NCBI GenBank assembly: GCA_029975745.1
Contig: JARKOL010000126.1
Coordinates: forward strand, 1 to 42,665
DNA from: Myxococcota bacterium
Lineage (GTDB): Bacteria > Myxococcota_A > UBA9042 > DTJE01
Reading direction: 5' to 3'
Length of the DNA stretch: 42,665 nucleotides
The notes under the pieces are model-generated. The model made no database searches, was not told the origin of the DNA, and saw only the letters and a program-made list of their open reading frames with translations. Shown here one piece after another: positions 1-12,606 of this stretch (position 1 is its first letter; the number at the start of each line of letters is the position of its first letter). The position numbers and the translations under genes were made by a program.

Positions 1-2760
1 AACTGCACCCTGGAGGACACGTGCCTGGGCGGCAGTTGCGTGGGCACCCCGATGGACTGCGACGACGGCCTGGTCTGCACCACGGATGGGTGCAGTGACG
101 GCGCATGTCGGCACAGCCCGGCACCGGGACACTGCTTCATCCAGGGGGTCTGCTACGTCGCGGACGAAATCAACCCCGACAACATCTGCCAGAAGTGCGA
201 TCCACCCCGGGTCCAGACCGTCTGGGGTCACAACAACGGCGCGACGTGCGATGACGGAAACGCCTGCACGTTCGATGATACCTGCAACCGTGGCGGCTGC
301 GACGGAACGACCTACGGGTGCGATGACGGACTGGCCTGCACGATGGACGTCTGCACGGGCGACGGCGGCTGCGACTTCGTGGTCCAGCCCGGCTTCTGCC
401 TGATCGAGGGGCGCTGCTACCAGGCCGGAGACAGCCACTTCCTGACGTCGTGCAAGGCCTGCATGCCCCTGGCAAGCCAGACCGACTGGACGGACCTGAC
501 CATCCCCTGTGACGATGGCAACGCGTGCTCGAAGGACGACGTCTGTCAGGACGGGTTCTGCACGGGCCTGCCCTACGTCTGCGACGACGGCATTTCCTGC
601 ACGACCGACCGCTGCGACGGGCTGGGGGGCTGCTCCTACGCCGTCCAGGTGGACAAGTGCCTGATCGGCGGGGTCTGCCGCAACGCCTACGCCACGAACC
701 CGGCTAACGTCTGCCAGGTCTGCCTGCCCAGCCTGTCCCAGACGAGTTGGCGGCACAACGACGGAGCCGCCTGCGACGACGGCGTCGCATGCACCCTGGG
801 CGACTACTGCCTTGGCGGCGCCTGCAACGGGCTTCCGTACGTGTGCGACGACGGCCTGTTCTGCACGAACGACATCTGCAACGGGGCCGGCGGCTGCACC
901 TACGAGCGCCAGCCGGAATACTGCCTGATCCAGAACCAGTGCGTGCTGGACGGCGAACGCAATCCCGCCAACACCTGTCAGGAGTGCGATGCCGTCGCGT
1001 CCCCCACCACCTGGATCGGCATCAGCGGGCCGCCGTGCAACGACGGCAACGCCTGCACGCTGAATGACGTCTGCACCAGCGGCGCGTGCGTCGGAACCCT
1101 GCACCCCTGCGACGACGGCGTGGTCTGCACGGCCGACATCTGCGACGGCATGGGCGGCTGCTCGTTCCCCCTGGCGCCGGGGTGGTGCCGGATTCAGGGC
1201 GTGTGCTGGCCCCAGGGTGCGCCGAAGCCGAACGACACGTGCCAGGCGTGCGTCCCGCAGGCCAGTACCAGCGACTGGACGGTGCTGGACGTCAACGAAC
1301 CCGAGATCTGCAACGGCATCGACGACAACTGCGACGGAATCACGGACCCGGAAAACACGTTCGGCTGCGTGTTCTACTACGTGGACGCCGACGAGGACGG
1401 ATTCGGGAACGGGGGCATCCCGCCGCGCTGCCTGTGCGCCCCCGAAGGGAACTATCGGGCGACCGTCGCGGGGGACTGCAATGACGACAACCCCTCGATC
1501 CACCCCGGTGCGACCGAGATCTGCGACTGGGTCGCCGGGCCCGGCTCGGCCCCCATCGACAACGATTGCGACGGACTGTTCAACCCGGAAGGCACCATGG
1601 GATGTGCGTTCTACCATCGCGACAATGACGGCGATGGACACGGCGTTCCGGGCGACTTCCGCTGTCTGTGCGAGCCGCAGGGCGTCTATAGCGCATTGAG
1701 CCCGACCGACTGCAACGACAACAACCCCTACGCATGGCTGGGCGCGCTGGAGATCTGCGACGGGCACGACAACGACTGCGACGGCCAGACCGATCCCGAG
1801 GGCGCGCTGGGGTGCTCGTTGTTCTACCGGGACGCCGACGGGGACGGATTCGGGGTCGGCTCGGAAAGCAGGTGTCTGTGCGGCGTCACCGGGGAATACA
1901 GCGCCACGCGCGCCGGCGACTGCGACGACGGAAACCCCGACGTGAATCCCGACGCCTTCGACGCGTGCAACGGCATCAACGACGACTGCGTCGGCGGGAT
2001 CGATGACGCCCCGCTGGCACTGATGTGCCCCACGGACCCGGGCGCGAACCTGAACGGCACCGTATCGTGCCAGGGTGGCGGTTGCCAGTTGATCTGCAAT
2101 GGCGCGATTCTCGCCCCGCCGCAGGGGGCCTGGCACGACAACGACGGCGTCCTGTTCAACGGGTGCGAGTGCCAGGATGACGCCTACTCGGTCGAGAGCA
2201 GGCACGACGTCTGTTCCAGCGCACGCGACCTTGGGGAAGTCAAGGACGACGGCGGCGTTCGCGTCGTCCAGGCGAACCTCGCGGCCCCCGGCACGTCGGA
2301 TTGGTGGCGCATCCGGGCCACCGACCTGACGCCCACGACCGAACCCGACGGCTGCGACAAGTTCAACTTCAAGGTGATCTTCCTGGACAACCCCGGGGAC
2401 GGGTTCCGGATCGACGCCTTCCGTGGGGGCTGCCAGGAGTTCAGGCGCATCTGCAGCAACGGAACGACGGTCGAGTGGGCCACCAACTTCCGGGACGCCT
2501 CGGGCCGTGGCGAGTGCGCCTGCTCGCCCCACCAGATCGACCTGTGTGACCCGCCCGAGGATCTGGCCGACTGCATCCGGAGGGTCGGCATCCAGAACTG
2601 CGGGTCGTGTCCGGGCATGGGGCAGCCCAACGCCAACCTCTGCACCGACAACTCCGAAGACTTCTACATCCGGGTCTTCCGCAAGGCCGGGGCGGCGCCG
2701 ACGTGCGCGAACTACCGACTGGAATTCTCGAACGGCAAGTACCCCTACAGCGGCAACTAG
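1..2760 (+). CDS. Cys-rich repeat protein with MopE-like putative metal-binding motifs (5' truncated by window edge)
   Basis: Frame 1 is open from base 1 through the listed ORF (40..2760). N-terminal half has repeated CDDGxxCTxDxCxxxGGC...NPxxxCQxCxPxxSQTxW units. Central part has about three EICNGxDDNCDGxTDPEGxxGC...YxDxDGDGFG...RCLC...DCNDxNPxxxPGAxEICD units, as in putative metal-binding (MopE-like) repeats. Confidence 0.85.
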   Translation, partial: NCTLEDTCLGGSCVGTPMDCDDGLVCTTDGCSDGACRHSPAPGHCFIQGVCYVADEINPDNICQKCDPPRVQTVWGHNNGATCDDGNACTFDDTCNRGGCDGTTYGCDDGLACTMDVCTGDGGCDFVVQPGFCLIEGRCYQAGDSHFLTSCKACMPLASQTDWTDLTIPCDDGNACSKDDVCQDGFCTGLPYVCDDGISCTTDRCDGLGGCSYAVQVDKCLIGGVCRNAYATNPANVCQVCLPSLSQTSWRHNDGAACDDGVACTLGDYCLGGACNGLPYVCDDGLFCTNDICNGAGGCTYERQPEYCLIQNQCVLDGERNPANTCQECDAVASPTTWIGISGPPCNDGNACTLNDVCTSGACVGTLHPCDDGVVCTADICDGMGGCSFPLAPGWCRIQGVCWPQGAPKPNDTCQACVPQASTSDWTVLDVNEPEICNGIDDNCDGITDPENTFGCVFYYVDADEDGFGNGGIPPRCLCAPEGNYRATVAGDCNDDNPSIHPGATEICDWVAGPGSAPIDNDCDGLFNPEGTMGCAFYHRDNDGDGHGVPGDFRCLCEPQGVYSALSPTDCNDNNPYAWLGALEICDGHDNDCDGQTDPEGALGCSLFYRDADGDGFGVGSESRCLCGVTGEYSATRAGDCDDGNPDVNPDAFDACNGINDDCVGGIDDAPLALMCPTDPGANLNGTVSCQGGGCQLICNGAILAPPQGAWHDNDGVLFNGCECQDDAYSVESRHDVCSSARDLGEVKDDGGVRVVQANLAAPGTSDWWRIRATDLTPTTEPDGCDKFNFKVIFLDNPGDGFRIDAFRGGCQEFRRICSNGTTVEWATNFRDASGRGECACSPHQIDLCDPPEDLADCIRRVGIQNCGSCPGMGQPNANLCTDNSEDFYIRVFRKAGAAPTCANYRLEFSNGKYPYSGN

Positions 2761-3259: not shown

Positions 3260-6145
3260 CTACTGCGAGATCCGGCAGGACACCTGGTAGTCCCAGGCGG
3301 TCCCAGGCTCGCCGCCGATCACCCGGACCGTGAAGGTGTCGTTCTTGCCCTTGGTGAACAGGCCGTTGACCGAGCCGCTGCCCGGCCCGGCAATGCCGCC
3401 CGGATACCGGGGATTGCCCTCATAGCTGGACTCGCCCCGCCAGCCGGTGTTCACGACCTGCATGCCGTCCGGGTAGTCGGCCAGGAACATGTCCGGAATG
3501 GAATAGGCATCGAATCGCAGGTCGAACACGGCCCCCTTCGGGATGTCCGAGATGTCCCAGGTGTCGATGGTCCCCGAAGACCCCCCGGACCCGGCCGCCT
3601 TCCACGAGTTGCAGATGGTCAGGTCGTACTCGCGCTCCGGAACCTCGCCGATCACCACCATCGCGGTTCCGGAGGCCAGGTTGTCGCCGCCGGCCTGGAC
3701 CACCGCGTACACGCCGAACGAGCCCTCGCGGACGAACCGGTGGAACACGGTGAACCCGGCGCGCCCCCCCTGGACCGTGGCCACCTGCTGCCCCAGCGCC
3801 TCGGGCGAACCGTCCCCGAAGTTCCACTGGAACGTGACCTGGCCCACGCCCGAGGGCAGACCGGTCGCCTCCATCGTGAAGGGATACTCGTTCTCCATGT
3901 CGCCCGCCAGGAAGGACGGCACGATGGTCAGCCGCGTGCCCACCGACACCTGCGCGCGCGCGTCCGCGATCTGCTCGCCCGTGTCCGTCCGCACCAGGAC
4001 CGCCGTCAGGATGTACGTTCCCGGAAGGGTGTACTCATGACGGATGACCGTCTGCGACCGGCCGCCCGAGACCGTCTCGACCGCGGCGTCGGTCGTGCCG
4101 TCCCCGAAGTCCCATTCGAACCGGACCTCGGTCAGTTCCGACGGAATCCTGGAGGCGGCCAGCGTGAAGGCGTACTGGCGCCCCACATCACCGTCCTCGA
4201 TCCCCGGCGGGTCGATGGTCAGCGACGTGTCCACCAGCACCTCGACGCGCGGCAGGCTCGTCGGATCATTCAGGGCATACGGCAGGCCGATCGCCCCAAA
4301 GAAGCTGTCGTACAGGTGGACGTTCAGGTCGTACGTGCCGTCCTCCCCCTCCTTCGGCGCCCAGTTCTGTCGGGCAATCCCGTCGGCGGGCATCGTGACT
4401 TCGACGATCTTCCGGGGCGGCGGCTGAGGCTCGCCGTCGGCGACGACCGGGAACGCGACGAATGCGGCGCGCAGGCCGTCCGCGTTGATCGCATCGGCCC
4501 GCAGGGTGACGTTTTCGGCGATGGTGACCTTGCGGGGACTTGCCTGAAGCCGGGGCCTGGGGGACTGCATCAGCATGCGCTTGTACTGGAACAGCACGAT
4601 GTCGATGCTGCTGATGCTGCCCAGGCCGATCTTTGACAACAGCTTGTTGGTCTCGGACAGGGTTTCCATCAGCGGCGACAGATCCGCGGAGACGCCGGCG
4701 TACACGTTCCACTCGGGGCCCTTGTACTGCCGATCATTCGGGTCGAACGGCAGCGCCAGCGCCAGGTCGGTCCCGGCAAAGAGCTTCAGACCGACGGTCT
4801 TGGCCGACAGCAGTTCCCAGTGCGCCAGCTGGATGGACTTCGCCAGCACGCCCCGGAAGAACGGCTCCACCTGGATCTTGAACTCGTGCTTCATGCCGCC
4901 GTCGAGCTTGCCCAGCGTGACCCCCTCACCGACATCCTCGCGCTCCTTGATGGGATAGAAGCCCTGCCCGCTGGCGTATCCGAACCCCAGTTTCACCTCG
5001 ATCCCCTTGTCCACCTTCGGCCCGGTCAGTTTCACCTCGCCCGCCGTGTATCCGACGGTGATTCCGACGCCAACCTCCGGCTTCAGCACCGGCGCGATGC
5101 CGATGGGGCCCAGGATCGGGATGAACGCGAACGGAATGCTGCCCAACTCCTGCACGCACTCCAGCTTCCCGGTCAGGCCGCCCGACAGGCTGACCTCGCC
5201 CACCGAGCCCGTGATGCCGGCACTGCCCCGAAGGTAGAAGTCGAACTGCTCGACACTGCTGGAAAACCACCCCTTCACGATCCGGACCTCGGCCACCGCG
5301 CGCAGACTCAGGCGCTGCTCCAACTGGAAGCCGCTGAACCCCACGTTCACGACGCTGGTTTCGCCCTTGCACTTCAACTTCGGCAGCGACAGGGCGCCGT
5401 ACAGGACGCCCTCCTCGCCGTCGTCGGGCGGCGGCTCGACCGCCTGGGATCCGTCACGACTGCTGCGCACCACGCGCGTCCCGTCGTCGTCCAGGACCAC
5501 ATCAAAGACGATCGGCGGTCCCTCGGCGATGACGTCCAGTTCCTCGAAGACCTCCAGCAGCGTCGCCGGCACCGTCTCGAAAGTCCGCCGCCCGCCCCCG
5601 TCCTCGACCACGTCGATGACCCGGTCCAGAAGGCCGCCGACATGACCGCCAAACAGGACCGTGCCCACGTCGATCGTCCCGGTCGCGGCGTTCCGGCGCA
5701 GCGTGACCAGCGCCCGATCGCGCAGGTCGGGATCCGGATACTCGATGGCAATCACGTCCTCACGGGACACCAGCACCGCCTGCGGCGTCAGCCCGGCAAT
5801 CGCGGCCACGACCGTCGCGGGGGTCGCCTTGCCCGAACTGACCGAGATCACGGCGGAGCCGGGCTGGAAGGAGGCCGCGGTCAGCTCGCCACTCTTGTTG
5901 ACCCAGACCACCTCCGGCGCGCTGGATTCGAACTGGAAGGACGCGCCGTCCACGACGCTGCCGTCGCCCCGGCGCACGACGGCCCGGATTCGCGCCTTCT
6001 GCCCCACCTCCGTGAACACGAAGAAGCTGTCCGAGGTGATCTCGACCCAGCCATCACCACCCGGGCCGGAGTCCCCGCAACCGGACAGCATCAGTACGCC
6101 CGCCAGGATCGAAAGCACCGCTCCCAGGAATCGTCCGCGCCCCAT
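3260..6145 (-). CDS. Large secreted lipoprotein with Ig-like and PKD domains
   Basis: ORF 3260..6181; ATG at 6145 has GGAGG 6 nt upstream. Lipobox LAGVLMLSGC. Two PKD-like units (FEWDFGDGTTDA..., FQWNFGDGSPEA...). Confidence 0.8.
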   Translation of the reverse strand: MGRGRFLGAVLSILAGVLMLSGCGDSGPGGDGWVEITSDSFFVFTEVGQKARIRAVVRRGDGSVVDGASFQFESSAPEVVWVNKSGELTAASFQPGSAVISVSSGKATPATVVAAIAGLTPQAVLVSREDVIAIEYPDPDLRDRALVTLRRNAATGTIDVGTVLFGGHVGGLLDRVIDVVEDGGGRRTFETVPATLLEVFEELDVIAEGPPIVFDVVLDDDGTRVVRSSRDGSQAVEPPPDDGEEGVLYGALSLPKLKCKGETSVVNVGFSGFQLEQRLSLRAVAEVRIVKGWFSSSVEQFDFYLRGSAGITGSVGEVSLSGGLTGKLECVQELGSIPFAFIPILGPIGIAPVLKPEVGVGITVGYTAGEVKLTGPKVDKGIEVKLGFGYASGQGFYPIKEREDVGEGVTLGKLDGGMKHEFKIQVEPFFRGVLAKSIQLAHWELLSAKTVGLKLFAGTDLALALPFDPNDRQYKGPEWNVYAGVSADLSPLMETLSETNKLLSKIGLGSISSIDIVLFQYKRMLMQSPRPRLQASPRKVTIAENVTLRADAINADGLRAAFVAFPVVADGEPQPPPRKIVEVTMPADGIARQNWAPKEGEDGTYDLNVHLYDSFFGAIGLPYALNDPTSLPRVEVLVDTSLTIDPPGIEDGDVGRQYAFTLAASRIPSELTEVRFEWDFGDGTTDAAVETVSGGRSQTVIRHEYTLPGTYILTAVLVRTDTGEQIADARAQVSVGTRLTIVPSFLAGDMENEYPFTMEATGLPSGVGQVTFQWNFGDGSPEALGQQVATVQGGRAGFTVFHRFVREGSFGVYAVVQAGGDNLASGTAMVVIGEVPEREYDLTICNSWKAAGSGGSSGTIDTWDISDIPKGAVFDLRFDAYSIPDMFLADYPDGMQVVNTGWRGESSYEGNPRYPGGIAGPGSGSVNGLFTKGKNDTFTVRVIGGEPGTAWDYQVSCRISQ

Positions 6146-6409
6146 CGACCACCTCCCTTGGGAACGCCGGCCCCCTCGCAAGGAAGCCCGACCGTCCCCG
6201 ACACTCTGGATTCAGTAGGGCAGACTCGCATCCCTGGCGGCCGAAGTCAACTTGCCGCCGACGCACTTGACGCCGAGGCCCGAAGGTCCCGACGCGTTGC
6301 GAGCCGAAGCGCCCTGGGACGGATGCAGCGCTTCAGCCGCGGGGTGCCAGGCCCCAGAACTACGTTCGAATGGTGGGATTGGGACAGGTTCGATGGGGGG
6401 ACGGCGCGC

Positions 6410-6790
6410 CTACTTCTTGTGGCAGTCGTTGCAGAGCGTGGGCGCCTTGGTGTCGGCCTTCTTGGCCTTCTCGGCCTTGTGGCACTTCTGGCAGCTGGCG
6501 TGGTAGGCGTCCTTCGAAGAGGGGGTATCGCCTTCCTTGGCCGCCTTGTGACACTCGCCGCACTTCGGCTTGGACTTGTCGCCACCCTTGAAGTTGTGGT
6601 GGCACTTGTCGCACTTGATGTCCTTGGCGTGCGTCGCGTGGTCGAACGTCACATCGCCGCGCTTGCTCTTCACGGTGACCTTCGCGGGCTCGCCCGCGAA
6701 GCCCGTCGCCTGGAACGAGCCGATGACCAGCATCAGCGCCCCGGCCGCCAGCAGCAGCGCCCCCGCGACATTCTTCGAAAACACCTTCAT
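6410..6790 (-). CDS. Small periplasmic tetraheme class III (c3/c7-like) cytochrome
   Basis: Signal peptide MKVFSKNVAGALLLAAGALMLVIG. Four CXXCH motifs (CDKCH, CGECH, CQKCH, CNDCH) and FDHATHAKD. Confidence 0.85.
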   Translation of the reverse strand: MKVFSKNVAGALLLAAGALMLVIGSFQATGFAGEPAKVTVKSKRGDVTFDHATHAKDIKCDKCHHNFKGGDKSKPKCGECHKAAKEGDTPSSKDAYHASCQKCHKAEKAKKADTKAPTLCNDCHKK

Positions 6791-6887: not shown

Positions 6888-7964
6888 TCACCCGCCGTGG
6901 CACATTTTGCACATCTTTGTGTCCCGACCCGCCGTCGGGTTCCAGCCCTTCGGGTGCGGGCTGCGCCCGGCCGTGCCGCCGACCCGGTGGCACGTGATGC
7001 AGTTCGATGCGGCGCCCCGGTCGTGGCACGACGCGCAGGACACGATGTCCCGGCGAGCCGCATCCCCGTGGAAGTCCGGGGACTTCACATTCATGGCCCA
7101 GCCGGCCGGATGGGGCGAGGCCCGATCACCACGCCGCTGCCCCTGGGCAACGCGCGCCTCCTCGTGACACGTCTGGCACTGGCGGGTCGAGTGGCACTTC
7201 AGACAGGCGGCCGGGTCCGTGCGCGCCTCGATCGGATGACGCGTCAGGAAATCGCCCCGGTGGACCAGTTGCCGATCGACCTGCTCCGAGAAGCGCAGTG
7301 CCTGGGGCATGCCCTCCAGACGATTGTGGCAGTCCGAGCAGGAATCCTGGCGATGGCAGTGCGCGCACACGTCCCCGTCGGTCTTGGCCAGGCTGCCGTG
7401 ACGGGCCATGAAGTCGGCATCGTGCGAGAACAGCGCGGTGGGGCGCGACGGGTTCTCGGCCAGGTCGCCGTGGCATGCCTTGCAGTCGATATCCCGGAAC
7501 TCCTTGCGATGGCAGGACATGCACATGTCGTGGTTCATCGGGCGGGCCGCCTGGGACGGCGCGGTCCGCTGGGCCACCCCGGCGTGGCACGGTTCGCACT
7601 TGCCCTCGGACACCTCGACGTGCAGCGCGTGGCTGAACAGGACCCCTTGGGACGCCGGACGCGGCGTCCACGTTCCCGGATTGGCCGGGTTCGTGTGGCA
7701 CAGGCCGCACTCGCCGTCATTCTTCTCGTGGCAGTCCAGGCACTGGGCCTCGCGGTAGCGCATCGCGGACGTGACCTGATCGGACTCGATGACCGCCTGG
7801 TGGCAATCCGAGCAACCGATCTCGTTGTCGATGACGTGTAGCTTGTGGCTGAACTTGATCCGGTCCTCGCGCTTGACCAGGGATCCGCATGCGAACACGG
7901 TCCCCAGCCCGACGGCCGCGATCGCCACCATCCAGATTCCCTTGGACACGTGCAGTCGCTCCAT
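6888..7964 (-). CDS. Multiheme c-type cytochrome, 13 CXXCH motifs, probable lipoprotein
   Basis: Start MERLHVSKG at 7964. 13 CXXCH motifs counted (CSDCH, CLDCH, CGLCH, CEPCH, CMSCH, CKACH, CAHCH, CSDCH, CLKCH, CQTCH, CASCH, CITCH, CKMCH). N-terminal hydrophobic segment ending VFAC. Confidence 0.88.
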   Translation of the reverse strand: MERLHVSKGIWMVAIAAVGLGTVFACGSLVKREDRIKFSHKLHVIDNEIGCSDCHQAVIESDQVTSAMRYREAQCLDCHEKNDGECGLCHTNPANPGTWTPRPASQGVLFSHALHVEVSEGKCEPCHAGVAQRTAPSQAARPMNHDMCMSCHRKEFRDIDCKACHGDLAENPSRPTALFSHDADFMARHGSLAKTDGDVCAHCHRQDSCSDCHNRLEGMPQALRFSEQVDRQLVHRGDFLTRHPIEARTDPAACLKCHSTRQCQTCHEEARVAQGQRRGDRASPHPAGWAMNVKSPDFHGDAARRDIVSCASCHDRGAASNCITCHRVGGTAGRSPHPKGWNPTAGRDTKMCKMCHGG

Positions 7965-7972
7965 CGGACACC

Positions 7973-9373
7973 TCACTTGACGAACGTGTCGAATTCGTAC
8001 TGGAACTTCAGCAACCCCGACCACGCCTGCGTGAAGTCGGGATTCACATGCACCGCAACGTCACCCTGGAGACGCGCCCCCTTGCCCAGGTCGCATCCGG
8101 CGGTCAGCGAAACGACGTGCGAACGCTTGTAGCCGCCATCCCCGGTGTGCCGATAGGGCGTCACCCCCGACGGGTCCATCCGCCGCCAGACGTCCCACCC
8201 CAGCACCGCGTCGTCATAGAAGTAGTTGTTGATGTCCGCGGTGACCAGCAGGCGGCGGAAGGCCTCGGGCCGATACGCCGCGAACACCCGCGCCTGCGTG
8301 TAGGCGTTCTGGAAGCCCTTCAGGCGGGCGACCTCCAGCCCCACCGAACTGCCCGCGCCCGCACCGTCGAAGCGCAGGATCGGGCGCAACCCGACCTCGT
8401 AGCCGTGATCGTCATCCTCGTAGTGGTAGTAGCGCCCGTACAGGTTCGCGCCCAGCCACCCGGAGCCGTAGTAGGCCACGTCGGCCCCGACCTTGTGGTA
8501 GTCCGCGTCGGTGAACACGCTGAAGATCGACGTCTTCGGGATGCGGCCGGACGGGTCGTACATCCCGTAGTTCAGGGTGAAGCGCCAGTCGCGCCCCAGA
8601 AGGTACGTCAGCGAGTTCGACGTCTCCTGGAAGGACGCGGACACCAGGTCCACCAGCACGTAGCCGGCGAACTCGACCTGTCGGAAGTACCTGAAACTGT
8701 AGTCGACGCCCAGGTTGGACCGATCGAACTGGCCGTCGGCCCGCTGCCCCGTATAGGACACCCCGATATTGCCGAACTGCCAGGGTCGATAGGCGATCCG
8801 GCCACCAAAGACCGTCCGGTCCAGGTCGAAGTCCGACCCCTGGTACGGCACCCAGCCGCCGAACGCCGAGATCTCGAGGGGGATCTTCGGGCGAACGCGG
8901 ACGTAGACACCGTCCATCATCGTGTTGTTTCCAGCGCTTTCGTACAGGATCTGCCGCCCTGCGCGCACCGTCACCAGGTTCCTGGGATGGGTGTAGGTCA
9001 CCGTGCCGATCAACAGGTCCCCGGCAACCGAACGTTCACCGGCCTGGTGGAACGGGACCAGCCGGCCCCACCCGCTCATGTGGATCGAGAAACCAGGCAC
9101 GCCGACGTCGTCCGCGCCCATCGTCAGGTACTGGTACATCGGCATCTGGAACAGGCGGGACGTGGGATCGTTCGGATCCAGCACCTGTCTGCCCAGGAAG
9201 TAGGTCGTCGAGGATCCGTAGACCCTCGTTCGACCTTCCGACCGAGGCGACTGGGCCTGGACCGTGTCGGCCGGCTTGTCCCCCTCATCGGCCAGGACGG
9301 GCAGGGCCAGCGACAGGGTCAGGGCCCCCAGGATCGCCCCGGAAATCCCGAGGTTCCTTGCACCGATTGCCAT
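7973..9373 (-). CDS. Outer-membrane beta-barrel protein, putative porin partner of the adjacent cytochromes
   Basis: Start MAIGARNLG at 9373, signal peptide ending LALPVLADE. Alternating aromatic/polar strands throughout, C-terminus LKFQYEFDTFVK. Lies between two multiheme cytochrome genes. Confidence 0.75.
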   Translation of the reverse strand: MAIGARNLGISGAILGALTLSLALPVLADEGDKPADTVQAQSPRSEGRTRVYGSSTTYFLGRQVLDPNDPTSRLFQMPMYQYLTMGADDVGVPGFSIHMSGWGRLVPFHQAGERSVAGDLLIGTVTYTHPRNLVTVRAGRQILYESAGNNTMMDGVYVRVRPKIPLEISAFGGWVPYQGSDFDLDRTVFGGRIAYRPWQFGNIGVSYTGQRADGQFDRSNLGVDYSFRYFRQVEFAGYVLVDLVSASFQETSNSLTYLLGRDWRFTLNYGMYDPSGRIPKTSIFSVFTDADYHKVGADVAYYGSGWLGANLYGRYYHYEDDDHGYEVGLRPILRFDGAGAGSSVGLEVARLKGFQNAYTQARVFAAYRPEAFRRLLVTADINNYFYDDAVLGWDVWRRMDPSGVTPYRHTGDGGYKRSHVVSLTAGCDLGKGARLQGDVAVHVNPDFTQAWSGLLKFQYEFDTFVK

Positions 9374-9407: not shown

Positions 9408-11720
9408 CTACCACCGTTCCGGACCATGACACATCGGGTCGCAGGTCCGCGTTCCGGCATCCCAGGTCCCGTTTCGAATCGCCACGTCCACCTTGCCGTC
9501 CAGGTGTTTCAGCGTGTCCAGGATCGCGGTGCCGAGCGTGTTCGTGACCCCCATGTGGCACCAGGTGCAGTCCGCCGCGATGCCGTTGTGATCCTCGTAG
9601 TTGCCGGGATGCTTCCCGGTCTTCGGGGGCAGGCCGTGACACGCGTCGCAGGACGACTGGGAGCCGTCCACCACGTTCCAGATCGGGGTCTGGTGCTTGC
9701 CGCCGACCAGGTCCGCTCCGTGGCAGTAGGTGTTGGTGCAGGTCCCTGCGACCCGGTCGAAGGACGGCGCCAGGCCTCCGGTCGTGGACAGGTCGCCGAA
9801 CACGACCTCGGCGGGACGCAGCGTGTCCATGTGCCCCGGGCTGGTCCACGTCGCGGGCACGATGTGACACGCGTCGCAGTCCAGGGGCACGGTGACGCCC
9901 CGGGTCGCCCGCAGGTGCGCCTGGTGCGCGCCCACCGTCATCAGCGCCGTGTCCGTGCCGCCTTCCAGATCGCGGGGCGGCGCGTCGTTGTCCAGCCCGC
10001 CATGGCAGGCGTTGCACTGGGGCGACGCATTGTGCTGGACCACGCCATCGATGTGCGTGGCGTTGCCCGGCCGCAGGCCCCCGTCCACCGTGGCCGTCGC
10101 CTCGTGGCAGGTGCCGCAGGCCGGCACGTTCGCCGGATGCGTCCCGCCCGGAGGCAGTCCGTGGCAGGAACCGCAGGCCACCTGGGAGCCGTCCACGGTC
10201 GTCCACAGCGGCGCAGTCCGACTTCCCCCGTCCAGAGTGGCGCCATGACAGTAGGTGTTCGCGCAGGTGACAGTGCCGCCGTCCCAGGTGGGCTGGGCCC
10301 CGCCGGCGACCGACAGGCCCCCGAACACGACCTGGACGGTGCCGTCCAGGTGTCCGGCATCATCGACCGCCGCCGGCACCACGTGGCACGACGTGCAGAC
10401 CACGGGCTGCCCGATGCATTGCAGGGCCAGCAGGTGCGCCTGATGGGCGCCCACCGAGCGCAGCGCCGTGTCGTTCCGCCCCAGCGTGTCCACCGGCGGG
10501 GCGGGATTGTCGGTGCTGCCGTGGCACGAGTTGCAGGTGCCGCCGGCCGTCACCTGGACGACCCCGTCGATGTGCTGGGCCGGCTTCGCAATCCGGCCGT
10601 CGGCCCCGACCGTGTCGTGGCAGTTCGCGCAGTTCGCCCCGGCCGGGTGGGCACCGCCCGACCGCAACGTCGCCGGCGCCATCCCGTGGCACGTGCCGCA
10701 CGCATCCTGGGTCCCGTCCACCTTCGTCCACTTCGGCGCCGTCACCGAGCCCCCGTCCAGGGTCGCCCCGTGGCAGTAGGAACCGGCGCAGGTCTCGGTG
10801 GCGACGTCCCAGGTCGGCGTCGCGCCGTCCAGCCGGCCCCAGGCGCCGAAGACGACCTGGGTCGTCCCGTCCAGATGGCCGGGCGACTCCAGTTCGGAGG
10901 GGACGAGGTGGCAGTCCGCGCACGTCAGCGCCGGCGCCAGCGTCGTGCCCTTCAGGTGTGCCTGATGGGCCCCCACGGTTCGCAGCGTGGTGTCCGAGCG
11001 CCCCGCCAGATCGACCGGCGGCGCGGCGTTGGCCGCGTTGCCGTGACAGGAGTTGCACGCGGTCCCGCCCCGGGCCTGGACCTTGCCGTCGATGTGCAGA
11101 TCGGGTCGCGCAATCGAGCCGTCGGCGGCCACGGTTTCGTGGCACATCGCGCAGTTGGCTCCGGCCGGGTGCGCCCCGCCCGAGCGGACCGTGGCCGGCC
11201 CCAGCCCGTGGCAGGAGCCGCAAACGACCTGCCCGGAGGGATTGTCCGCGTTCCAGGTCGGCTCGACGTTCGTCCCCCCGTCGAGGCCCGCGCCGTGACA
11301 TGCCACGTTGCGGCAGGTGACCCGCGCCGTTTCGCCGGTGCCATTCGCCACCACCTCGGGCACCAGGCCCCGGGCAATCGCGATGCCGACGAAACGAACC
11401 TCGGCCGGCAGCGCCGAGTCGATGTGTCCTACCGAATCCAGTTCGTCCGGGATGCGGTGGCAGGTCACGCAGGAGACCGAAGCCCCCAGCACCCCCCCCA
11501 CCAGGTGCGCCTGATGCGCGCCCACGCCGCGGAACGTCCGCTCGACGTTGCCGCGGCTGTCCGGTGCCGGTGCCCAGGGCGCCTGCGTACCGTGGCACCC
11601 GGCGCACGCTTCCTGCGGAGGCACGTCGGCCCCGCCCTCCGCGTCCCGGTACTCGGAACACCCCACCATCCCCCAGGCCACGCAGGCCGCCATCGCGACC
11701 CCGAACGTCCGCTTGCCCAT
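9408..11720 (-). CDS. Modular multiheme lipoprotein cytochrome with CX2CH, CX4CH and one CX3CH motif
   Basis: Start MGKRTFGVAMAACVAWGMVGC at 11720, lipobox. 16 CXXCH plus four CX4CH (CRNVACH, CAGSYCH, CANTYCH, CTNTYCH) plus terminal CDPMCH. Resembles the Geobacter-type CxxxxCH/CxxCH domain family. Confidence 0.88.
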   Translation of the reverse strand: MGKRTFGVAMAACVAWGMVGCSEYRDAEGGADVPPQEACAGCHGTQAPWAPAPDSRGNVERTFRGVGAHQAHLVGGVLGASVSCVTCHRIPDELDSVGHIDSALPAEVRFVGIAIARGLVPEVVANGTGETARVTCRNVACHGAGLDGGTNVEPTWNADNPSGQVVCGSCHGLGPATVRSGGAHPAGANCAMCHETVAADGSIARPDLHIDGKVQARGGTACNSCHGNAANAAPPVDLAGRSDTTLRTVGAHQAHLKGTTLAPALTCADCHLVPSELESPGHLDGTTQVVFGAWGRLDGATPTWDVATETCAGSYCHGATLDGGSVTAPKWTKVDGTQDACGTCHGMAPATLRSGGAHPAGANCANCHDTVGADGRIAKPAQHIDGVVQVTAGGTCNSCHGSTDNPAPPVDTLGRNDTALRSVGAHQAHLLALQCIGQPVVCTSCHVVPAAVDDAGHLDGTVQVVFGGLSVAGGAQPTWDGGTVTCANTYCHGATLDGGSRTAPLWTTVDGSQVACGSCHGLPPGGTHPANVPACGTCHEATATVDGGLRPGNATHIDGVVQHNASPQCNACHGGLDNDAPPRDLEGGTDTALMTVGAHQAHLRATRGVTVPLDCDACHIVPATWTSPGHMDTLRPAEVVFGDLSTTGGLAPSFDRVAGTCTNTYCHGADLVGGKHQTPIWNVVDGSQSSCDACHGLPPKTGKHPGNYEDHNGIAADCTWCHMGVTNTLGTAILDTLKHLDGKVDVAIRNGTWDAGTRTCDPMCHGPERW

Positions 11721-11970: not shown

Positions 11971-12606
11971 ATGCTGACGGAGCGACTGCTTCAGGTGACC
12001 CTGGTCGGCAGCGAGTGGGTGCTGTACCTGCTGCTGTTCCTGTCGGTGGCGTCGATCGCCATGATGGTCGAGCGGGCCCTGTTCTTCAGGGCCAGCCGCA
12101 TCGCGTGGGACCGTCTGCTGGAACGCACCGAACCCCTGCTGCACGCCGGCCAGGTCGGGACCATCGAGGAGGTCGTCCGGACATGGCCCGGCCCCGAGGT
12201 CGAGGTGCTGCGCGCCGTGTTCGACGGGGCGGCCCGGGGCCCGGCGGCGATGGAGAAACTGGTCCACGCGGCCCTGCTGAACGAGCAGCAGCGGATGGAG
12301 CGGCGCATCGCGTTCCTGGGCACCATGGGCAACAACGCTCCCTTCATTGGCCTGTTCGGCACCGTCCTGGGGATCATTCGCGCATTCCGGGACTTGTCCC
12401 TGGACGTCAAGGGGGGCGCGAACGTCGTCATGGCCGGCATCTCCGAGGCCCTGATCGCCACCGCCGTCGGGTTGTTCGTCGCGATCCCGGCGGTCATCGC
12501 GTACAACTACTTCATGCGACGCAGCGCCCGCGCCAGCGTCCGCGCACAGTCCGTGGCCAGCCGATTGATGGCGCTGCTGCCCGCGCGACAAGATGTTCAG
12601 GTCTGA
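11971..12606 (+). CDS. MotA/TolQ/ExbB-type proton channel family protein
   Basis: GGAGG RBS 6 nt before ATG. Motifs FLGTMGNNAPFIGLFGTVLGIIRAF and GISEALIATAVGLFVAIPAVIAYNYF. Confidence 0.9.
   Translation: MLTERLLQVTLVGSEWVLYLLLFLSVASIAMMVERALFFRASRIAWDRLLERTEPLLHAGQVGTIEEVVRTWPGPEVEVLRAVFDGAARGPAAMEKLVHAALLNEQQRMERRIAFLGTMGNNAPFIGLFGTVLGIIRAFRDLSLDVKGGANVVMAGISEALIATAVGLFVAIPAVIAYNYFMRRSARASVRAQSVASRLMALLPARQDVQV

Follow-up and report, generated by a model that had tools for sequence, protein, structure and literature searches.

The window analysed here is a 42,665-nt stretch of DNA from a Myxococcota bacterium. It carries, on the reverse strand, a gene for a repeat-rich multiheme cytochrome followed by a porin-like gene and two further cytochrome genes. 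Successive heme motifs within a module of the repeat cytochrome are referred to below as slots A to E, and the single motif at the C-terminus as T.

9408..11720, reverse strand: open reading frame for a 770-aa predicted outer-membrane lipoprotein cytochrome with 21 heme motifs, (ABCDE)x4 + T, matched by TIGR01904, PF09698 and PF14522
11658..11660, reverse strand: Cys21 of the predicted lipobox (MVGC-S), the lipid anchor site, read from the sequence
11295..11315, reverse strand: CX4CH motif CRNVACH, slot C of module 1, from a motif count on the translation
10770..10790, reverse strand: CX4CH motif CAGSYCH, slot C of module 2, from the same count
10245..10265, reverse strand: CX4CH motif CANTYCH, slot C of module 3, from the same count
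9720..9740, reverse strand: CX4CH motif CTNTYCH, slot C of module 4, from the same count
9609..9611, reverse strand: His704, the one histidine (GxHP) that D-E loops usually have
9588..9590, reverse strand: His711, an extra residue in the last D-E loop (KHPGNYEDH) and candidate distal ligand, from its co-occurrence with T
9426..9443, reverse strand: CX3CH motif CDPMCH, terminal heme motif T, slot A by heme order, from motif order and flanking profiles
7973..9373, reverse strand: second cassette gene, for a 466-aa porin-like protein of the outer membrane, kept beside the repeat cytochrome in relatives
6888..7964, reverse strand: 358-aa predicted lipoprotein cytochrome with 13 CX2CH motifs, third gene of the cassette, from the motif count and relatives
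6410..6790, reverse strand: small four-heme cytochrome c3/c7-like protein, likely a periplasmic carrier (PF02085, E=6.3e-16)

The 770-aa protein contains 16 CX2CH motifs, four CX4CH motifs and one terminal CX3CH motif, and its heme linkers read 22422 22422 22422 22422 3, with CX4CH always at slot C. The coordinates given in the preliminary description for the CX4CH motifs and for CDPMCH were all confirmed on recount. TIGR01904 matches the protein with E=6.7e-60 and 198.8 bits (curated cut-off 27), with five stretches over threshold, and PF09698 matches with E=7.4e-14 and 52.6 bits (cut-off 21.7); cytochrome c7/c3 models match as well, including PF14522 (E=4.4e-21). The order on which TIGR01904 and PF09698 are built, CX4CH followed by CX2CH, is found at slots C and D of all four modules. 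Judged by these matches, the protein is a member of the known GSu_C4xC__C2xCH family. Because both models are named for the Geobacter CxxxxCH...CXXCH motif, the CX4CH heme site is an already known, named feature.

When the modules are aligned from slot C to slot C, any two have 87-100 identical residues in an alignment of 176-182 columns, and the CX4CH columns are invariant in 45 aligned modules. The module alignment and the five TIGR01904 stretches agree with the earlier proposal that the protein repeats in tandem and has CX4CH at the same slot each time. The shared module text was found too, slightly altered in module 4 (GHMD, ADLVGG, CDACHG), and the C-terminal motif does belong to the same architecture as the modules. 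Relatives keep the same module phase over 3 to 16 modules and 16-81 hemes (26, 36, 68 and 81 hemes are examples from the same family). Another family of the same class has proteins of 73-83 hemes in which slot D is CX3CH (CGASCH, CGTTCH) in each regular module, giving the linker string 22432 (L102-L106, from G017, G025, G037, G029 and G047). Two genomes hold a second, far longer copy of the repeat cytochrome beside the 36-heme cassette copy (81 hemes in G005, L099; at least 68 in G011, L095), and no porin homologue was recognised adjoining these long copies. Structure prediction with AlphaFold2 gave a pLDDT of 43.7 for the mature full-length protein, too low to support a heme layout, and of 72.4 for one module, a weak model for which no fold match was found in the PDB; the conclusions below draw on neither model. 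A PDB sequence search with the 770-aa protein and its profile returned nothing significant.

The three intervals between CX4CH motifs are exactly 525 nt each (175, 175 and 175 aa), as had been noticed at the outset, and the spacing of GAHQAHL is uneven, as had also been noticed, with intervals of 183, 174 and 173 aa (+24, -3 and -6 nt from 525). The further suggestion that the exact period is meaningful did not hold up. The segments within the three intervals are unequal (CH to CH: C-D 29/28/28, D-E 23/23/19, E-A 32/32/34, A-B 45/46/46, B-C 46/46/48), so the equal totals arise from small differences that cancel. The C-to-C interval of relatives has a mean of 172.3 aa (about 172 +/- 2, 85 modules), falls mostly within 168-178 aa and most commonly takes values of 171-175; the two nearest relatives have 177/170/172 and 175/174/174/175 aa. 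Exactly equal consecutive triples account for 11 of 55 in relatives, and 175-175-175 is therefore unremarkable. Module 1 alone has a longer B-C loop (54 residues CH to CH, versus 44-48), as it does in most relatives, and this 8-residue extra is the main source of the uneven GAHQAHL spacing. Since the loop lies upstream of the first CX4CH, it is absent from all C-C intervals, yet it does lengthen the first A-A or B-B interval.

One might still ask whether the 175-aa period itself is under selection, for example through a fixed helical repeat of the wire. Slots C and D do show the smallest interval spread (sd 2.2-2.3 aa, versus 3.3-4.6 at A, B and E), but the wider spread at A and B stems from the module 1 loop. 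With outliers removed, the total variance of module length is below the summed variance of the segments (3.8 versus 5.5; permutation p=0.006, with modules that are not independent), while no variance reduction is seen with all relatives' modules kept; the negative covariance is mainly that of D-E with B-C, for which lineage history could be the reason. Cancellation of segment lengths across relatives is weak at most. One group of relatives (f6) holds about 180 aa across many modules, but the period ranges from 149 to 194 aa between lineages, the nearest relatives are uneven, and recent tandem duplication by itself gives near-equal modules. Selection on the period is thus improbable, and the exact 525-nt spacing was rejected as a special feature on the basis of the relatives' intervals and the mixed outcome of the compensation test.

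The histidines outside the heme motifs follow a regular pattern. Their number between successive hemes is 2-1-0-1-1 in each module, or five per five hemes, and their contexts in order are GAHQAH (two), GH[LIM]D, none, GxHP and H[IV][DN]G. The count of such histidines equals the heme count in some relatives (26/26 in G001, 36/36 in G006 and 16/16 in L044), whereas the 770-aa protein has 23 for 21 hemes, with His563 and His676 as surplus residues outside the pattern. Because this protein and some relatives exceed one histidine per heme, the count alone does not assign ligands.

A closer association was found at the end of the protein, where the last D-E loop contains an extra histidine, His711, in addition to the usual His704. 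The pattern was first noticed in 11 proteins, where the extra residue is present in 11/11 last D-E loops and in 0/77 internal loops, and it was then checked in further genomes. The wider set has it in all 25 proteins that carry T, in none of the 10 that end at HxDG without T, and in 1 of 209 internal loops. Three of 28 rows with T were dropped from this set after the result had been seen, as they were judged not to be terminal caps or to be misparsed: a 45-heme ORF (L166) and an ORF from L041, with one D-E histidine each, and, from L171, a broken ORF that has three such histidines. If every row is retained, the contrast is 26/28 versus 0/10 (p=1.4e-7), and because the proteins compared are related, such p-values overstate independence. 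The contrast holds across several families and at distant loci in Anaeromyxobacter (L042), candidate division GN15 (L045) and Holophagaceae (L087). On the simplest reading of this covariation, T probably does bind heme and has a distal ligand to itself. A narrow literature search found no description of the coupling between a terminal heme motif and an extra histidine.

The preliminary description regarded CDPMCH as the CX4CH position minus one residue, that is, as a counterpart of slot C. This reading is disfavoured by the heme order, by the flanking profiles and by the variable linker of T. T comes after C-D-E and so stands at slot A of a would-be fifth module (21 = 4x5+1), where the normal motif is CNxCHG. 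The terminal segments of 12 proteins were scored with profiles made from relatives' internal segments. The segment before HxDG scores better with the E-A profile than with the B-C profile in all 12, although the margin is small in the 770-aa protein (2.6 versus -1.3 bits). The segment after HxDG prefers the slot A profile in nine proteins and the slot C profile in three, with several margins of about 1 bit; for the 770-aa protein the scores are 21.4 bits with slot A and 11.9 with slot C. Internal control segments reach 51-74 bits when scored with the matching profile and 6-7 with the opposite one. The scores of T fall far below these controls, arguing that it is a divergent third type and not a clean copy of either A or C. 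The linker of T in 25 proteins is X3 in 13, X4 in five, X6 in three, X7 in three and X2 in one, and since it also takes X2, X6 and X7, a linker one residue shorter than X4 sets up no special link to slot C.

A descent of T from slot C nonetheless deserves consideration, in which a truncated fifth module, produced by recombination between HIDG (E-A) and HLDG (B-C), would have left a shortened CX4CH at the C-terminus. The TWD..T.TC text near T truly resembles slot C (TWDAGTRTCDPMCHG compared with PTWDGGTVTCANTYCHG), and a chimeric origin is for this reason conceivable. The E-T distance of 42-50 residues (CH to CH) is also nearer to B-C (44-48) than to E-A (31-36), and the five relatives with CX4CH at T and the three proteins that favour slot C after HxDG fit the same idea. 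These points have to be set against the heme order and the text before HxDG, which indicate slot A in 12/12, against the nine segments after HxDG that prefer slot A, that of the 770-aa protein among them, and against the range of T linkers. On balance a shortened slot C is unlikely, if still worth weighing, and a cap at slot A is the likelier identity of T.

Whether the unusual motifs could receive heme depends on the attachment machinery. CcmE, CcmF and a CcmA-like ATPase are encoded at one locus of the genome, together with CcmB- and CcmC-like genes recognised by eye. The genome's CcmE carries CXXXY (KCPSKY) and not HXXXY (L109, G000:C27); no match to CcmH was found in the genome, which is 87% complete, and no ResB was found there. 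Of the three PF01578 matches, one was read as CcmF; inspection by eye suggests that another is CcmC-like and that the third, encoded next to a hemA-like gene, is CcsA/HemX-like. A dedicated heme lyase, which the preliminary description had advised looking for, was not found beyond one ordinary CcmF. CcmE is present in 41 of 53 relatives and a CcmH match in three of the 53, and CXXXY (KCPS[KR]Y) occurs in all 30 CcmE proteins retrieved from relatives (L180-L209). This class of Myxococcota appears, from these sequences, to use a cysteine-type System I. Cysteine-type CcmE is known in archaea and in bacteria such as Desulfovibrio desulfuricans, and Methanosarcina acetivorans has a CXXXY CcmE without CcmH (PMC9084895). 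Mass spectrometry of MmcA from M. acetivorans found heme on both CXXXCH and CXXXXCH (PMC11024163), and cytochrome c3 has CXXXXCH twice (PMC10454114). These precedents make it plausible that hemes are attached at both CX4CH and CX3CH of the 770-aa protein without a dedicated lyase.

The opposite possibility is that the terminal CX3CH, and perhaps the CX4CH motifs too, hold no heme, T being a relic or a cap closed by a disulfide bond. In favour of this, CX3CH falls outside the canonical heme motifs, and no biochemical data were found for the 770-aa protein or its relatives. However, most of the proteins compared keep the motif at the C-terminus, its presence goes with that of the extra histidine (25/25 versus 0/10), the slot C CX4CH columns do not vary, and MmcA is proven to be hemylated at both kinds of site in a host whose Ccm system is of this type (PMC11024163). 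A heme-less terminus is accordingly given little credence.

The repeat cytochrome is the first gene of a cassette. The order of repeat cytochrome, porin and 13-heme cytochrome recurs in five relatives (G001, G005, G009, G011 and G012), and fragments or divergent versions are found in G003, G006 and G026, the version in G026 being a more distant one. Identity in family-level relatives is 47-66% for the 466-aa porin and 54-74% for the 13-heme cytochrome. Further away in the phylum, repeat cytochromes with 15-20 hemes have homologues of the porin and of the partner cytochrome (12 hemes) beside them, and the porin profile matches 49 of 284 genomes of the phylum. The 466-aa protein has no Pfam or NCBIfam match at E<=1 and no PDB match; its putative identity as a porin, and with it a barrel fold, comes from cassette conservation and appearance. 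With a porin-like gene kept between the 21-heme and 13-heme genes here and in relatives, the layout is, as far as gene content and order can tell, the standard one for an outer-membrane electron conduit. Orthologues of the four-heme c3/c7-like gene adjoin the cassette in G001 and G006.

Other genes lie nearby. A TolQ/ExbB-like gene (11971-12606, forward strand) is divergent and upstream, and is kept there in five relatives (64-80% identity). A 906-aa protein (40-2760, forward strand) has repeated CDDGxxCT / CxxGxC text, and similar genes occur near the cassette in G001 and G009. Downstream of the cassette is a gene for a large predicted lipoprotein with two PKD domains (3260-6151, reverse strand), which was not found in the relatives' cassettes.

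Based on this and the preceding evidence, we consider it probable (roughly 75%) that the gene encodes a lipid-anchored, surface-exposed cytochrome of an outer-membrane porin-cytochrome conduit, built of pentaheme modules and a separate slot-A cap with its own distal histidine, with hemes attached by System I. The protein would move electrons across the outer membrane together with the porin and the partner cytochrome; its topology and the direction of electron flow are presumed, as are heme attachment and axial ligation, whereas the sequences themselves show the repeat architecture and slot order, the conserved cassette, the histidines that go with hemes, and a CXXXY CcmE with no CcmH detected. 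Each module would bind four hemes at CX2CH and one, at slot C, at CX4CH, and its five conserved non-motif histidines, in the contexts given above, would provide a second axial ligand for every heme. Wires would grow longer or shorter as modules are gained or lost in tandem. The single-heme cap T, CX3CH in this protein, may close the C-terminus in place of the next slot A, with the extra histidine of the last D-E loop as its distal ligand. System I (CcmABCEF), with its cysteine-type CcmE, would attach all of the hemes, including those at CX4CH and CX3CH.

A broader version of this model can be offered more tentatively, as a conjecture with slightly less than even chances. Length-variable wires of this family would end in a dedicated one-heme slot-A cap, with linkers from CX2CH to CX7CH and always with its own distal histidine in the preceding D-E loop, while uncapped proteins would lack that histidine. 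The cap would then be an exit or docking heme, and CXXXY CcmE without detectable CcmH would permit the varied linkers.

The predicted layout gives every heme of a pentaheme module one histidine and the end heme a histidine to itself, and it thereby predicts axial ligands for a cytochrome family for which sequence searching found no solved structure. The analysis also links the non-canonical heme sites of this bacterial class, CX3CH and CX4CH, to a CcmE of the cysteine type without detected CcmH, a system proven in one archaeon to hemylate both. The coupling of T to the extra histidine is the part that deserves further attention; the period and the CX4CH motif are ordinary for the known family.

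In comparison with known systems, the 770-aa protein has in common with TIGR01904 and PF09698 a CX4CH followed by CX2CH at a fixed distance, in tandem. That domain model spans slots C and D only (73 positions), whereas the present protein has a five-heme unit, five conserved histidines and a terminal cap, a combination that was not found described in the literature searched. The OmcS, OmcE and OmcZ filaments gave no PDB sequence match, and no fold match to the weak one-module model. MmcA (PMC11024163) has the same mix of CX2CH, CX3CH and CX4CH, but it is an archaeal protein with seven hemes and no pentaheme repeat. The MtrAB, MtoAB and PioAB conduits have a porin of the MtrB/PioB family and a decaheme partner of the DmsE/MtrA family, and the 13-heme protein here scores 19.2 bits with TIGR03508 against a cut-off of 192.2; as the porin matches nothing in Pfam, NCBIfam or the PDB, the cassette is not assigned to the Mtr/Pio group.

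PCC3 of Fe(II) oxidisers combines a porin, a repeat-rich extracellular multiheme cytochrome (median 34 hemes) and a second multiheme cytochrome in one cluster (PMC5566968, He et al. 2017), and the same kinds of gene, compared by description, are found together in the present cassette. The systems differ in the second cytochrome, with a median of about 21 hemes in PCC3 and 13 CX2CH motifs here, and in the porin, which has up to 42 predicted transmembrane strands in PCC3 and is a 466-aa protein here. PCC3 clusters also encode a conserved protein of the inner membrane (about 300 aa, two HX13H motifs), and none was recognised in the annotation of the genes around the present cassette. Likened by layout, the cassette also resembles the OmbB-OmaB-OmcB and Ext conduits of Geobacter (PMC12307469), in which an outer-membrane porin is combined with inner- and outer-facing cytochromes for the same presumed job.
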